A stretch of DNA of 52,640 nucleotides. Source: Loigolactobacillus jiayinensis. GTDB taxonomy: Bacteria; Bacillota; Bacilli; Lactobacillales; Lactobacillaceae. Where the stretch lies: NCBI RefSeq assembly GCF_003946445.1, contig NZ_RHOF01000026.1:1-52640 (forward strand). Reading direction: 5' to 3'. A program made the translations under genes and the position numbers. The notes beneath the pieces were generated by a model. That model was not told the origin of the DNA. It ran no database searches and worked only from the letters and a program-made list of their open reading frames with translations. Positions 39,564 through 43,827 of the stretch are shown here, piece by piece. The first letter of the stretch is position 1. Every line of letters starts with the position of its first letter.

Positions 39564-40727
39564 ATGAGTAATCGTGTGTATTCAGTTAAGCTACCGGAAG
39601 CAATCGCGGATCAGCTTAAGTTGACGGATGAGCAGGAATTAAAAGTTACTGTGGCCAATTCAGGCATCTTACTACAGGCTGAACCAAAGTCGCAAAATGA
39701 ACAGAGAATCTATGTGTGGGCTGCCGTGTTTGCCGCTATAAGTAGTTTGGTATTTGTCGGTGTTTTGCTCAACTTAAAACGCTATACGATTGCGTTAGTG
39801 GGCACGGAATCAATTGCAACTGCAGTAATTATATTAGGGGTTGTTACTGGTATCAGCCTATTTACAATTTACTTTGTCAAAAATCGGCACAGTTCAGCGA
39901 CGTCTTCAGCGGCCCGTATTTATTGGCGTAACTTACCGATCATTGTGCTTTCCTTTGCCTTGATTTTGAGCTTAGTTTTGTTAGGTGCTTTCTGGCTGAT
40001 TGGTTTATTGTTTGAGGGGGCTAGTTTTGATTTGGGCACCGCTACAGCCATCCTTTTCGCGTTTAATTTTGTCGTTAATTATTTTATGGTCTGGTCAGCC
40101 TTGTCGCTAGACGCCACACGCTTAATGTGGCTATTCACTGCGGTAATCATTAGTGGTGTGGCGATCTCAATGGCCACTAACGGTCAGCAGCACTGGTGGC
40201 AGCGTAATCTTAGTTTTTTAGGCACTAGCCATGCTATCAGCAGCTGGCAATTTAATTTAACCTTGATTGGTGCCGCCTTGATCATGGTGGCGCTGACTGA
40301 TTATTTGTTTGTATCGCTGCAATCGATTTACCAACATTCACGCCGCTTGTTGGTGCTGCGGGTTATATTGACGGCCTTTGCACTAGATCTTGGTGCAATT
40401 GGGCTGTTCCCTAACAACCCACGGTTTCATGTGTTGCATACCCGATTGGCTGGTTATTTAGTCTATTTCATTATTTTGTTAATTATTGGCGTCCGTTGGT
40501 TATTGCCGCATATTACCAAGGAATTCACTTATTTTTCGTATGCGCTAGGGTTGATTCTCCTTGGTTTAGAAATTGCCTTTCAGGGGATTGGTTATCTATC
40601 GACGACGGCCTTTGAAATGATTGCTTTTGTTCTGGCATTTAGCTGGATCGTGATGCTACTGGGACGATTACAGGAATTAGCCCAAGGTGGCAAGCAAGTT
40701 TTCTTTACGCACGTTAAAATTGGGTGA
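39564..40727 (+). CDS. AbrB/MazE-like domain fused to a DUF998-type membrane protein
   Basis: In this 387-aa protein residues 1-45 read MSNRVYSVKLPEAIADQLKL, then ELKVTVANSGILLQ, the swapped-hairpin pattern of AbrB/MazE/SpoVT DNA-binding domains. About ten hydrophobic helices follow: three near 56-110, then others to 380. GAIGLFPNN and HVLHTRLAGYLVYF resemble DUF998 proteins. A DNA-binding-like domain tethered to the membrane suggests a sensor, but the domain may have lost DNA binding. The ATG at 39564 follows GTGAGGG; an earlier start at 39552 has none. A terminator follows. Confidence 0.6.
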   Translation: MSNRVYSVKLPEAIADQLKLTDEQELKVTVANSGILLQAEPKSQNEQRIYVWAAVFAAISSLVFVGVLLNLKRYTIALVGTESIATAVIILGVVTGISLFTIYFVKNRHSSATSSAARIYWRNLPIIVLSFALILSLVLLGAFWLIGLLFEGASFDLGTATAILFAFNFVVNYFMVWSALSLDATRLMWLFTAVIISGVAISMATNGQQHWWQRNLSFLGTSHAISSWQFNLTLIGAALIMVALTDYLFVSLQSIYQHSRRLLVLRVILTAFALDLGAIGLFPNNPRFHVLHTRLAGYLVYFIILLIIGVRWLLPHITKEFTYFSYALGLILLGLEIAFQGIGYLSTTAFEMIAFVLAFSWIVMLLGRLQELAQGGKQVFFTHVKIG

Positions 40728-40733
40728 GCAAAA

Positions 40734-40764
40734 AGGCACCATTTTAGCGGTAAAATGCTTTTTC
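40734..40764 (+). terminator. Terminator after the DUF998-type gene
   Basis: The core stem ATTTTA/TAAAAT extends imperfectly (AAAAGGCACC with GCTTTTT) and ends in a T-run. Confidence 0.65.
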
Positions 40765-40799
40765 TGTGGCCTAAATGTGAATTTGATTAAAATTTGTTG

Positions 40800-40840
40800 T
40801 TGACAGCTCTAACTAAGTTAAGCTATACTCGAACTAAGTT
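40800..40840 (+). promoter_or_regulatory. Promoter with two identical palindromic operators
   Basis: TTGACA (40800-40805) and TATACT (40824-40829) have an 18-bp spacer. The palindrome AACTAAGTT occurs at 40811-40819, inside the spacer, and again at 40832-40840, just after the -10. The centres are exactly 21 bp apart, two helical turns. This indicates a repressor that binds cooperatively on one face. Its identity is unknown. Confidence 0.8.
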
Positions 40841-40863
40841 AAATCGAGAAAAGAGGAATCGCA

Positions 40864-40917
40864 GTGCAACAACGTCGTTTACAATTAAACAATGCCTGGT
40901 GGCAAAGCCAACTGTAG
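40864..40917 (+). CDS. trp leader peptide with tandem Trp codons
   Basis: GTG at 40864, 7 nt after AAGAGG, opens a 17-codon frame: MQQRRLQLNNAWWQSQL, stop at 40915-40917. Two adjacent TGG codons (40897-40902) stand six codons before the stop. The frame is too short to be a normal gene, but its position, ribosome binding site and WW pair are those of a leader peptide used for ribosome-mediated attenuation. A terminator and then a tryptophan-type ABC transporter follow. Confidence 0.75.
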   Translation: MQQRRLQLNNAWWQSQL

Positions 40918-40924
40918 ACGGACC

Positions 40925-41017
40925 GTTATCTAATGTAGATACGATCTGTCAGAGGATCGTATCTATGTTGGCCTTGCTTTTCTTCGTGCCCGCATAGATC
41001 AAACTATGCGGGTTTTT
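40925..41017 (+). terminator. Trp attenuator: competing hairpins and terminator
   Basis: Segments: A GTTATCTA (40925-40932), B TAGATACGATC (40936-40946), C GATCGTATCTATG (40955-40967), D CATAGAT (40993-40999), E CTATGCGGG (41004-41012). A:B, B:C, C:D and D:E (CCCGCATAG/CTATGCGGG plus TTTTT) are mutually exclusive. A ribosome at the stop codon would cover A, letting B:C and the terminator D:E form. One stalled at WW would leave A free, giving A:B and C:D, with no terminator. A longer stem, GCAAAGCCAAC/GTTGGCCTTGC, could form without translation. Confidence 0.7.
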
Positions 41018-41027
41018 GTTTATTTTT

Positions 41028-41063
41028 AAGCAATCACCCTAAAATTGGTGGTTGCTTTTTTTC
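41028..41063 (+). terminator. Second terminator upstream of trpX
   Basis: AAGCAATCACC pairs with GGTGGTTGCTT (one G-T pair) around an 8-nt loop, followed by a T-run. It lies 11 bp after the attenuator terminator, so the transporter genes need either antitermination of both or a promoter further down (weak TTGTTT-18-TATAGA at 41115-41144). Confidence 0.88.
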
Positions 41064-41163
41064 TTGAAAAAAAGTGCGCCATAAGCCGTCCTTATGGAAC
41101 ATGTGCTAGCAAAATTGTTTTAAAAAATTATTCGCAGTTATAGATTATGGGGAGGTTCTACAT

Positions 41164-42168
41164 ATGAAACGTATGTTAACGTTTATTGGGGTGTTGCTGG
41201 TCTTTCTCGGCTTTGCCTTTTTCCAAGAAGGTGGCGTGAAATCAGATAAGCCGCAAGTAGTAAAAAAACCAACGATTGGGATTTTACAAACAATGTCGCA
41301 TCCAGCATTGGATGATATCCGGCGCGGGACTATCGATCAGTTGCGTAAGCGTGGCTTTACTGATGGTAAAACTGCGACGATCGATTTCAAAAACGCAGAA
41401 GGTGATCAAAGTAATTTGAAGTCGATCGCTGAACGGTTCCAAAATGAAGGGACAGATTTGAATATCGGTATCGCAACACCAGCCGCACAGGCTATTGCCA
41501 ATACTGATAAGACGACGCCATTGATTCTCGGTGCCATCTCTAATCCAAAATCGGCGGGCTTGGTCAACAATAATGCGCACCCCGGCCATAACATCACAGG
41601 GGTGTCTAATCGCACACCAACGGCAGATCAATTGAAATTGATCCGCAAGATCATGCCTGACGTTAAAGTATTGGGCGTCATGTATACCTCGAGTGATCCG
41701 TCTGCGCAGGCCGAAGTTAAAGTGGTCCGTAAAATTGCACCTAAGTATGGCTTCACAATCAAAGAATTCACCGTTTCTAATTCCAACGATGTTGATCAGG
41801 TAGCACAAACAATGGCGCGCCAAGTTAAAGCGGTTTACGTTCCAACGGATAACACAATTGCGACGGCCATGCAGACACTGGTCAAAAATACCAACGCTGC
41901 GAAGATTCCTGTTTTCCCACCAGCGGGGACAATGGTTAAGGATGGCGGCCTAGCAACTTACGGTATCAATCAGTATCAGTTAGGTGTTGCGACCGGTAAT
42001 ATGGCAGCGGATGTGCTAGAGGGTAAATCAACCCCAGCAACCACGCCAGTTAAAATTGTTGCTAAAGGTGATCTTATTTTAAATCAAAAAGAAGCAGACT
42101 TACTTGGCATTAAGATTCCAGCTAAGTTGCAACAAGAAGCACAACAGAAAGGGGAGGTTTACAAATGA
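41164..42168 (+). CDS. trpX: ABC transporter substrate-binding protein, tryptophan type
   Basis: This 334-aa extracellular protein of the ABC_sub_bind (BMP-like, DUF534) family has an N-terminal hydrophobic anchor (MLTFIGVLLVFLGFAFF) with no lipobox Cys, so it stays membrane-anchored by the helix rather than by lipid. The TIGILQTMSHPALDDIRRG start and GIATPAAQAIAN, NITGVSN, MYTSSDPSAQ and VYVPTDNTIATAM blocks are family features. In lactic bacteria this family next to such a permease is assigned to tryptophan. The upstream leader with WW codons agrees. GGGGAGG lies before the ATG. The stop overlaps trpY. Confidence 0.85.
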   Translation: MKRMLTFIGVLLVFLGFAFFQEGGVKSDKPQVVKKPTIGILQTMSHPALDDIRRGTIDQLRKRGFTDGKTATIDFKNAEGDQSNLKSIAERFQNEGTDLNIGIATPAAQAIANTDKTTPLILGAISNPKSAGLVNNNAHPGHNITGVSNRTPTADQLKLIRKIMPDVKVLGVMYTSSDPSAQAEVKVVRKIAPKYGFTIKEFTVSNSNDVDQVAQTMARQVKAVYVPTDNTIATAMQTLVKNTNAAKIPVFPPAGTMVKDGGLATYGINQYQLGVATGNMAADVLEGKSTPATTPVKIVAKGDLILNQKEADLLGIKIPAKLQQEAQQKGEVYK

Positions 42169-43064
42169 GTCTTATTACATCAGCGATTGGTCAAGGTTTA
42201 ATGTGGGGGATTCTCGGTGTCGGCTTGTTTTTAACTTTCCGCGTGTTGAATTTTCCTGATATGACAGTTGAAGGAACGTTTCCCTTTGGCGCTGCCGTCG
42301 CGGTTACCGCGATTACGCACGGTATGTCGCCACTGCTAGCTACGTTACTGGCATTTGTTGCTGGGATGTTGGCTGGGTTAGCGACTGGCTTGTTATACAC
42401 GAAAGGCAAAATCCCCATTTTGTTAGCCGGTATCTTAGTCATGACCGCCTTGTACTCAATTAATTTACGCGTTATGGGCAAAGCCAATGTCTCCTTGTTA
42501 AATGAAAATACATTATTTAAAGCTAAATTTTTAACTCGTTTGCCACAGTATTTTGATGGTGTCGTTGTCGGTTTCTTATTTGTCGCCGTGACCTTGATCA
42601 TCTTGACTTATTTCTTGCAAACAGAGCTAGGCCAAGCCTTTATCGCAACCGGTGATAATGTGACTATGGCGCGTTCACTAGGCATTAAAACTGACGGAAT
42701 GACGATCATGGGTTTGATGGTATCCAACGGTTTCATCGGTATCTCCGGTGCGTTAATGGCGCAAAGCAATGGCTACGCTGATGTTAGTATGGGGATCGGT
42801 GTCATCGTTATTGGATTGGCGTCGATCATTATCGGCGAAGTGGCCTTTGGCGAACTGACCTTGAATCAACGGTTGGTTGCCGTAATTCTTGGTAGTATCT
42901 TGTATCGCTTCGTCTTGCTGATTGTCTTGCAATTAGGCTTCAACACCGACGATTTAAAACTAATTTCAGCTATCGTGTTAGCGTTGGCCTTAATGTTGCC
43001 AACGTTCCAGAAACGGTTCCATACGCAAAAAATAATTCGGAATGGGGTGGCGCGGCATGAGTGA
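42165..43064 (+). CDS. trpY: ABC transporter permease, tryptophan type
   Basis: This 299-aa permease has eight or more helices. ILGVGLFLTFRVLNFPDMTVEGTFPFGAAVAVTAI is the N-terminal signature of the BPD_transp_2-type permeases working with the preceding binding-protein family. GDNVTMARSLGIKTDGMTIMGLMVSNG and IIIGEVAFGELTLNQRL form the cytoplasmic coupling region. It overlaps trpX by 4 nt and trpZ by 8 nt, a tight operon. The substrate call follows from the operon's leader and family. Confidence 0.85.
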   Translation: MSLITSAIGQGLMWGILGVGLFLTFRVLNFPDMTVEGTFPFGAAVAVTAITHGMSPLLATLLAFVAGMLAGLATGLLYTKGKIPILLAGILVMTALYSINLRVMGKANVSLLNENTLFKAKFLTRLPQYFDGVVVGFLFVAVTLIILTYFLQTELGQAFIATGDNVTMARSLGIKTDGMTIMGLMVSNGFIGISGALMAQSNGYADVSMGIGVIVIGLASIIIGEVAFGELTLNQRLVAVILGSILYRFVLLIVLQLGFNTDDLKLISAIVLALALMLPTFQKRFHTQKIIRNGVARHE

Positions 43065-43827
43065 GCCAATTTTACAATTAAAGGATATCGTCGTCACCGT
43101 TGATACTGGTAACGAGGAACGACAAATTCTCAAGCAACTGAATTTAACCATTAATAGTGGTGATTTCGTGACGGTGTTAGGAACGAATGGTGCCGGTAAA
43201 ACGACATTATTCAACACGATTGCCGGCAACTTACAACCAGCTGGTGGTCAGGTGATTTTACGTGGGCGCAACATTAGCCGGGATAACGAAGAAAAACGCG
43301 CGCAGCATCTGAGTCGTGTGTTTCAGGATCCCAAAATGGGGACAGCACCACGGATGACAGTTGCGGAGAACTTATTGCTGGCGCAACAGCGCGGGCAGCG
43401 GCGGACACTTAAATTGCGGCAATTGCGGCAAAATCGAGAACATTTTCACGATATGGCCGCTGAAATCGGTAATGGACTGGAAGAGCATCTAGATACGCCA
43501 ACCGGTAACTTATCTGGTGGTCAACGGCAGGCGCTGAGCTTACTGATGGCAACCATGACAACACCAGATATTTTATTGTTGGACGAACACACCGCTGCGC
43601 TGGATCCCAAAACCAGTGAACAGCTGATGCACTACACCCAGCGACGGATTACCCAAAGTAATCAAACTTGTCTGATGATCACCCACCATTTAGAGGATGC
43701 TTTAGCATATGGTAATCGGTTGATCGTTATCGATGACGGGCGCATCGAGGCTGACTTTAACGCAGCGGAGAAGCAGAAATTAAGCCGTGAGCAATTATAT
43801 GAGTTCTTTGATGAAACTTTAAGTTAG
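43057..43827 (+). CDS. trpZ: ABC transporter ATP-binding subunit, tryptophan type
   Basis: This 256-aa ATPase has Walker A GTNGAGKTT, a Q-loop (RVFQDPKMG), signature LSGGQRQALSLL, Walker B ILLLDEHTAALDP and the switch ITHHLED. It powers TrpXY import. The ATG at 43057 overlaps the trpY stop by 8 nt and has GGGGTGG 8 nt upstream. The in-frame start at 43042 lies deep in trpY and is unlikely. A terminator follows, closing the trpXYZ operon. Confidence 0.88.
   Translation: MSEPILQLKDIVVTVDTGNEERQILKQLNLTINSGDFVTVLGTNGAGKTTLFNTIAGNLQPAGGQVILRGRNISRDNEEKRAQHLSRVFQDPKMGTAPRMTVAENLLLAQQRGQRRTLKLRQLRQNREHFHDMAAEIGNGLEEHLDTPTGNLSGGQRQALSLLMATMTTPDILLLDEHTAALDPKTSEQLMHYTQRRITQSNQTCLMITHHLEDALAYGNRLIVIDDGRIEADFNAAEKQKLSREQLYEFFDETLS

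Follow-up and report, generated by a model that had tools for sequence, protein, structure and literature searches.

Here we describe a leader region that very probably acts as a ribosome-mediated transcription attenuator of the tryptophan importer operon trpXYZ in Loigolactobacillus jiayinensis. The region lies on contig NZ_RHOF01000026.1, of which positions 1 to 52,640 were analysed (52,640 nucleotides, hereafter the window), and consists of a short upstream open reading frame (uORF) with adjacent Trp codons, a series of competing helices and two terminators ahead of trpX. Comparative evidence supports the leader frame, two competing helices together with an additional helix, P1 (by covariation), and a match between control codons and downstream gene across the order Lactobacillales; the positions of ribosome stalling, the read-through, the response to Trp and the order of events are predictions. 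Such a leader-peptide attenuator is likely the answer to the orphan riboswitch candidate RF04312. It also seems reasonably probable, from sequence comparison, that RF04312 and RF02863 form one family, an order-wide modular attenuator of the Lactobacillales in which one switch has been kept and the control codons (Trp; Phe/Tyr; perhaps Arg) exchanged to fit the gene, many members carrying a further pairing, F:G, and with it a chain of seven alternating helices.

In the trp and his leaders of Escherichia coli, a leader peptide with control codons is coupled to alternate pairing, and the his leader follows the scheme found here, with A:B, C:D and E:F set against B:C and D:E. The likeness drawn here is one of scheme; unlike the E. 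coli leaders, the present one has a helix that joins codons of the uORF to segment D, and a second terminator follows in tandem. For Firmicutes, a regular leader peptide was described as a novelty in 2010 (PMC2965389), and a later paper lists His attenuators in a few groups of the phylum (PMC9413887); going by their published descriptions, these are likewise classic attenuation outside Proteobacteria and Actinobacteria, but for His only. We found no prior account of the present attenuator in the open-access literature. It would provide a testable answer to a riboswitch candidate with more than 900 members and to an enterococcal small RNA (sRNA), and would widen the reach of classic leader-peptide attenuation to the supply of Trp and of Phe/Tyr in an order of food and gut bacteria. 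Exchange of control codons would then be a natural experiment on the evolution of specificity, and the leader codons a readable label of transporter substrate.

Leader peptide and competing helices in the window

The elements of the leader, all on the + strand, are as follows.

40852-40857, +: Shine-Dalgarno (SD) sequence AGAGGA of the leader ORF, read directly, 6 nt before the start
40864-40917, +: leader ORF MQQRRLQLNNAWWQSQL* (asterisk, stop), 17 codons, GTG start at 40864, TAG stop at 40915-40917
40873-40882, +: segment A, within the uORF, which by folding can pair with 40914-40921 as a pre-emptor hairpin (A:B)
40897-40902, +: control codons TGG TGG, read directly; TGG is unpaired in the alignment model and present family-wide, at a position found through a motif that includes it
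40907-40912, +: 5' strand of P1, GCCAAC, within the uORF, partner 40967-40972, by covariation
40917-40925, +: segment B, GACGGACCG, partner C at 40942-40950, by covariation
40936-40950, +: segment C, common to B:C and C:D
40955-40972, +: segment D, partners C (through 40955-40965), E (through 40961-40968 and 40970-40972) or the P1 5' strand (through 40967-40972)
40988-41019, +: terminator 1 (E 40988-40999, F 41004-41013, U-run to about 41019)
41028-41062, +: terminator 2 (G:H) and its U-run, ahead of trpX

The original prediction had claimed a 17-codon leader with a ribosome binding site and two adjacent TGG codons, and this was confirmed at 40864-40917; the frame translates as (M)QQRRLQLNNAWWQSQL. 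The start codon is GTG in the window and ATG in seven congeners (L002-L008), and the ORF with its two adjacent Trp codons (WW) is kept in four of them (L002-L004 and L007).

Helix B:C (40917-40925/40942-40950, one mismatch; -13.9 kcal/mol) and helix C:D (40936-40946/40955-40965, 11-12 bp; -15.8 kcal/mol) are mutually exclusive because strand C is common to both. D:E is formed by 8 bp (40961-40968/40992-40999) and a further 3 bp (40970-40972/40988-40990) at -12.9 kcal/mol (z -3.5), while the hairpin of terminator 1, E:F (40988-41013), reaches -16.7 kcal/mol (z -6.8). The fold of the whole leader has a z of -5.5, with none of 200 shuffles as low, and the scanned stretch holds four terminator-like sites (three on the + strand) against 0.4 expected. 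Termination would be the default, because C:D and E:F are stabler in isolation than B:C and D:E.

By our mapping, segments A-E of the original prediction correspond to B-F in the present naming. Its mutually exclusive pairings and intrinsic terminator held up in coordinates and fold energies, and its A:B and B:C (present B:C and C:D) also in covariation; the weak point that it named, a C:D stem (present D:E) of only 7-8 bp, does contain an 8-bp helix, but the 3 further base pairs make it slightly stronger than stated. Absent from that account were helix P1, the possible pre-emptor arm A within the uORF and the second terminator at 41028-41062.

With general values for the ribosome footprint, the following course of events can be proposed. 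When charged tRNA-Trp is scarce, a ribosome would stall at the TGG codons and cover about 40880-40912, so that part of A and the 5' half of P1 are blocked while B stays free; B:C could then form, D would be available for D:E, and with E occupied terminator 1 would not form and transcription would read through. A stall at WW that leaves the formerly named segment A (present B) free fits this geometry. When Trp is ample, the ribosome would instead reach the stop and cover B to about 40927, C:D and E:F would form and transcription would end, with P1 helping C:D once the ribosome is released. Without translation, A:B and P1 would likewise favour C:D and termination. In many relatives, F freed from E could pair with the 5' arm of terminator 2, such that one decision could govern two terminators.

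Conservation and covariation in the family

A TrpX match was present in 277 of 301 genomes covered in the window's family, Lactobacillaceae, and the upstream regions of 91 trpX loci, drawn from the best TrpX matches listed among the 277, were examined. The leader motif was recognised by reading in 87 of these, and in 82 a script called an ORF that has an SD in front and ends with a Trp codon. Adjacent WW codons occur within the window's genus in L001-L004 and L007 (one Trp in L005, L006 and L008) and beyond it in L009-L012 and L050. In the family alignment, the Trp codon was placed through similarity to a motif that includes it, which by itself accounts for part of its invariance there. The bare motif TGGCAAAGCC occurs at 18 places in the window's own genome.

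Covariation was assessed in an alignment of 67 non-redundant sequences out of the 87 leaders, with near-copies, the divergent L050 and the four leader-less loci excluded. In B:C, 93.6% of cells are paired and all eight pairs show changes on both sides; double changes occupy 80 cells, where shuffles give 25. For P1 and C:D taken together the paired fraction is 88.9%, 14 of 18 pairs have changed on both sides, and double changes occupy 136 cells where shuffles give 41; for P1 alone, 92.0% of cells are paired and three of six pairs have double changes. Shifting the partner by 1-3 columns lowers pairing to 23-48% for both sets. The covariation of B:C and of P1 with C:D is direct comparative evidence for a switch in which C serves both helices. 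The original prediction had called for an alignment of relatives, looking for conserved Trp codons and compensatory changes; the leader frame and a Trp codon proved to be conserved through family and order, and compensatory changes were present in the pairings as given above.

The remaining helices were compared in 68 loci, where D:E beats shuffles with a mean z of -2.12. A strict finder placed at least one terminator between leader and trpX in 62 of the 68 loci and at least two in 37. For these 37 loci, pairing was computed between F, as the 3' arm of terminator 1, and G, taken as the 5' arm of terminator 2 with its loop: native partners reach -11.6 kcal/mol, against -8.6 (sd 0.4) when partners are permuted among loci (0 of 20000 as low); the control pairings E:G and F:H are null (2830 and 1898 of 5000 permutations as low, respectively). 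Across the family, F:G looks like a second antiterminator.

Control codons and downstream genes across the order

In a permissive search, positions 40932-41023 on the + strand match Rfam RF04312, the trpB motif, below threshold (46.3 bits, E 1.7e-5, cut-off 59); at gathering score only tRNAs matched in the window. A relative, L074, lies above the cut-off at 60.2 bits. The window's switch, below the cut-off, is related to RF04312 by shared architecture without being a formal member. The entry was tied by name and architecture to SRC-39-1, which a 2024 paper ranks among strong riboswitch candidates and finds more than 900 times, mostly before an uncharacterised ABC transporter and occasionally before trpB (PMC11109978). 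Its authors speculate on a riboswitch for an amino-acid-related ligand and do not rule out a classic attenuator. Compared with the family described here, the RF04312 model and the accessible text of that paper are without the leader ORF, B, P1, the Phe/Tyr versions and the second terminator. Corynebacterium ilvB-II, as that paper relates (PMC11109978), was likewise first taken for a riboswitch candidate and then recognised as a uORF attenuator, but in another phylum and for other amino acids.

RF04312 matched in 211 of 395 genomes of the order, 59 of them above the cut-off, and our own model of the core in 119 of the 395; in a phylum sample, RF04312 matched in five of 398 genomes, two of which belong to the order. 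The order-wide sample consisted of best matches, at least one per genus, plus second copies, and is non-random with near-relatives kept. Because the RF04312 model does not contain the uORF, a search for uORFs beside its matches is free of motif-selection bias. Outside the family, 93 of 99 distinct matches adjoin a uORF, 83 with a Trp codon (an SD-preceded ORF with Trp in the last ten codons, ending next to the match) and 10 rich in Phe/Tyr; dinucleotide shuffles gave means of 3.7 and 0.1 and maxima of 8 and 2, respectively. L144 and L225 were excluded as contig edges, and L143, L203 (the same place as L227), L248, L249 and L258 were set aside as chance matches. Of nine distinct matches within the window's family, five have a Trp leader and four do not. 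Two of the matches deserve mention: L141 (G979), outside the order, has a Phe-rich leader (MNYINNFNLKIQIFFNNHFR) before an apparent sodium-dependent amino-acid symporter gene, and L145 (G051), a second copy at 86.6 bits, has a Trp leader followed by a group II intron-like reverse transcriptase ORF.

The control codons track the gene that follows. Trp leaders (WQSR*, WQNWRR*) precede trpX or, in L151, L158, L162, L189 and L199, trpB (identified by TIGR00263 in L158 and by reading in the other four). Phe/Tyr leaders (QLNxFYFSYFR*), with about 4-6 control codons, precede TrpX paralogs in G368, G387, G394, G401 and G408, genomes that also hold a Trp-leader trpX, and shikimate dehydrogenase in L250 and L252 (by reading). 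A pattern scan of the named genomes for the Phe/Tyr leader returned at least 119 stretches, nearly all from Enterococcus and other Lactobacillales. The first gene could be called in 111, and was an aromatic-pathway or transporter gene in every one: among the matches listed, 53 TrpX-like, 41 aroE, 7 DAHP synthase, 6 aroB-like, 2 aroC, 1 aroK and 1 amino-acid binding protein, none unrelated to aromatic amino acids if the substrate of the binding protein is left aside. No gene was called in eight stretches, one of which, L301, is a chance match without leader. Among cluster representatives, aroE and aroC passed their NCBIfam cut-offs. Those of DAHP synthase and aroB, truncated where the locus stops, were named by sub-cut-off best matches, as were the shikimate kinase and the binding protein.

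The transporters divide in the same way. In a tree of 126 TrpX-like proteins, built by a quick method after near-copies and rows without a leader label were dropped, 40 proteins with Phe/Tyr (FY) leaders and 86 with Trp leaders separate at one branch; outside the family, five of five Trp-type proteins pass the TrpX equivalog cut-off and five of five FY-type fail it. For the FY-leader clade, the predicted substrate is Phe/Tyr and not Trp.

Rfam RF02863, 'Enterococcus sRNA 2410', overlaps the Phe/Tyr version, above its cut-off in five of eight loci (L239, L250, L260, L274 and L281) and below it in L252, L253 and L254. It was called as an sRNA in Enterococcus faecium, with two bands (PMC5593968), and is filed as such; here the element appears as the 5' leader, with its own uORF, of aro genes and genes for TrpX-like transporters. 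The two Northern bands are no more than compatible with attenuation. The size of sRNA_2410 was considered as direct proof of termination and rejected, as by our reading the terminator-2 hairpin of L274 only starts around 413, the last position of the RF02863 match.

Other leaders with the same switch were seen alongside these. In one genus, an Arg-rich leader without Trp (QLNIRLRSR*/RSQ*) stands before an amino-acid ABC binding protein (L211, L237/L257 and L256; G015, G109 and G157), and one of these genomes, G109, has no TrpX match; Arg specificity is possible. Trp-codon leaders precede apparent oligopeptide-binding (OppA-like) genes in L196 (G589) and L238 (G510), an arrangement that suggests peptide import as a source of Trp. 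In Enterococcus florum (NZ_BJCC01000034.1; L259 and L321), two Phe/Tyr leaders stand before DAHP synthase and a shikimate-kinase-like gene, which suggests a pathway split into several leader-controlled units. An Arg recurs right before the stop in Trp- and Phe/Tyr-type leaders through different codons (CGG, AGA) and may possibly affect the speed of termination at the stop.

Alternative explanations and adjoining features

Several observations weigh against the attenuator as described. Four of the 91 family loci (L072, L085, L087 and L095) lack a leader, although L085 and L095 are second trpX copies in genomes whose other copy has one. Outside the family, six of the 99 RF04312 matches have no scored leader; of these, L253 is a Phe/Tyr leader just below threshold, L141 is the Phe-rich leader given above and four look like chance matches. 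Most family leaders have a single Trp codon (...WQSR*), fewer than classic examples. In the covariation analysis, the number of further pair types in B:C is not beyond chance (59 of 500 shuffles as high) and that in P1 with C:D barely so (15 of 500), and two inner columns of C:D are often unpaired (in 22 and 38 of 67 rows). The pre-emptor A:B has a modest mean z of -0.91 against -0.16 for a control stretch (68 loci). Within the genus of the window, F:G is a weak pairing (-5.5 to -6.7; native rank 19-34 of 36); it is for that reason left unclaimed for the window, where it would not account for the passage of terminator 2.

T-box control (RF00230), which the original prediction had considered absent at the leader, was rejected for the window's trpX for want of a covariance-model match upstream: none of the genome's 45 T-box matches (17 above the cut-off) falls on the window's contig, and none is listed for 40780-41170 at E up to 10. 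In the same genome, trpB shares its contig with a T-box match (C127:105-610; 57 bits, cut-off 93 and thus sub-threshold) that lies upstream and in the same direction, before apparent other trp genes; together with an attenuator at trpX, it raises the possibility that Trp biosynthesis and Trp import read one tRNA through different sensors. In Streptococcus suis, the same operon, trpXYZ, is reported to be T-box controlled, switched on under Trp limitation with uncharged tRNA-Trp as signal (PMC9382623), so that sensing there is by tRNA binding and here would be by a translating ribosome. A weak window match to RF02634, the EF3314_EF3315 sRNA (21 of 100 bits), did not recur in ten loci at E up to 0.01 and was dropped; the accessible text on that sRNA offered nothing relevant to the leader.

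A nascent peptide arrested at or near the stop by free amino acid in the ribosome, as in TnaC, would hide B and is very unlikely. The usual single Trp codon at a near-fixed distance from the stop and the recurrent endings WQSR*, WQNWRR* and FYFSYFR*, with pre-stop Arg specified by different codons, would suit it, but P1 pairing explains much of the constraint on the last codons, and the 4-6 control codons of the Phe/Tyr form are what starvation sensing predicts. Still less probable is a metabolite riboswitch, in which the RNA would bind Trp or a related ligand directly and the uORF would be incidental. The published standing of the trpB motif as a strong candidate (PMC11109978) and the strong conserved hairpins of the alignment speak for it; the uORF is near-universal, however, the Trp codon is unpaired in the model, and, as we read the alignment, conservation lies in the strands that pair and in the end of the uORF, without an additional block that resembles an aptamer. 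The exchange of Trp for Phe/Tyr codons in step with the gene, which is indirect evidence against ligand binding, is explained by a ribosome-read leader and not by a Trp-binding aptamer. Least probable of all is that the leader is an independent short transcription unit (an sRNA with terminators) and trpX has its own promoter: two terminators before trpX, a poor promoter match TTGTTT-17-TATAGA at 41116-41144 (7 of 12 bases as in the consensus, found by eye below the scan threshold) and the sRNA call for RF02863 with its two bands (PMC5593968) favour it, but the sole promoter-like site in a scan of 40700-41180 lies 5' of the uORF, L002 has about 24 nt between the terminator 2 U-run and trpX, too few for a promoter, and leader type follows the downstream gene.

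The features that adjoin the leader are as follows.

40800-40829, +: promoter-like site TTGACA-18-TATACT, 11 of 12 bases in a consensus scan
41164-42168, +: trpX, Trp ABC transporter substrate-binding protein (PF04392; NCBIfam NF041285 equivalog, 447 bits against a cut-off of 390)
42165-43064, +: trpY, permease, named by position (PF02653; no NCBIfam model above cut-off)
43042-43827, +: trpZ, ATPase, named by position (PF00005; none of 25 listed NCBIfam matches above cut-off)

By chance alone, the scanned stretch would be expected to contain 1.1 sites of this quality. An exact 11-nt repeat, AACTAAGTTAA, at 40811-40821 and 40832-40842 flanks the -10 element of this putative leader promoter in an operator-like arrangement; as an operator it was rejected, since it is not retained in congeners L002, L003 and L005-L007. 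With regard to the operon claimed behind the leader, the identity of trpX stands at equivalog level, and trpY and trpZ take their names from position, with matches to the permease and ATPase domains listed above.
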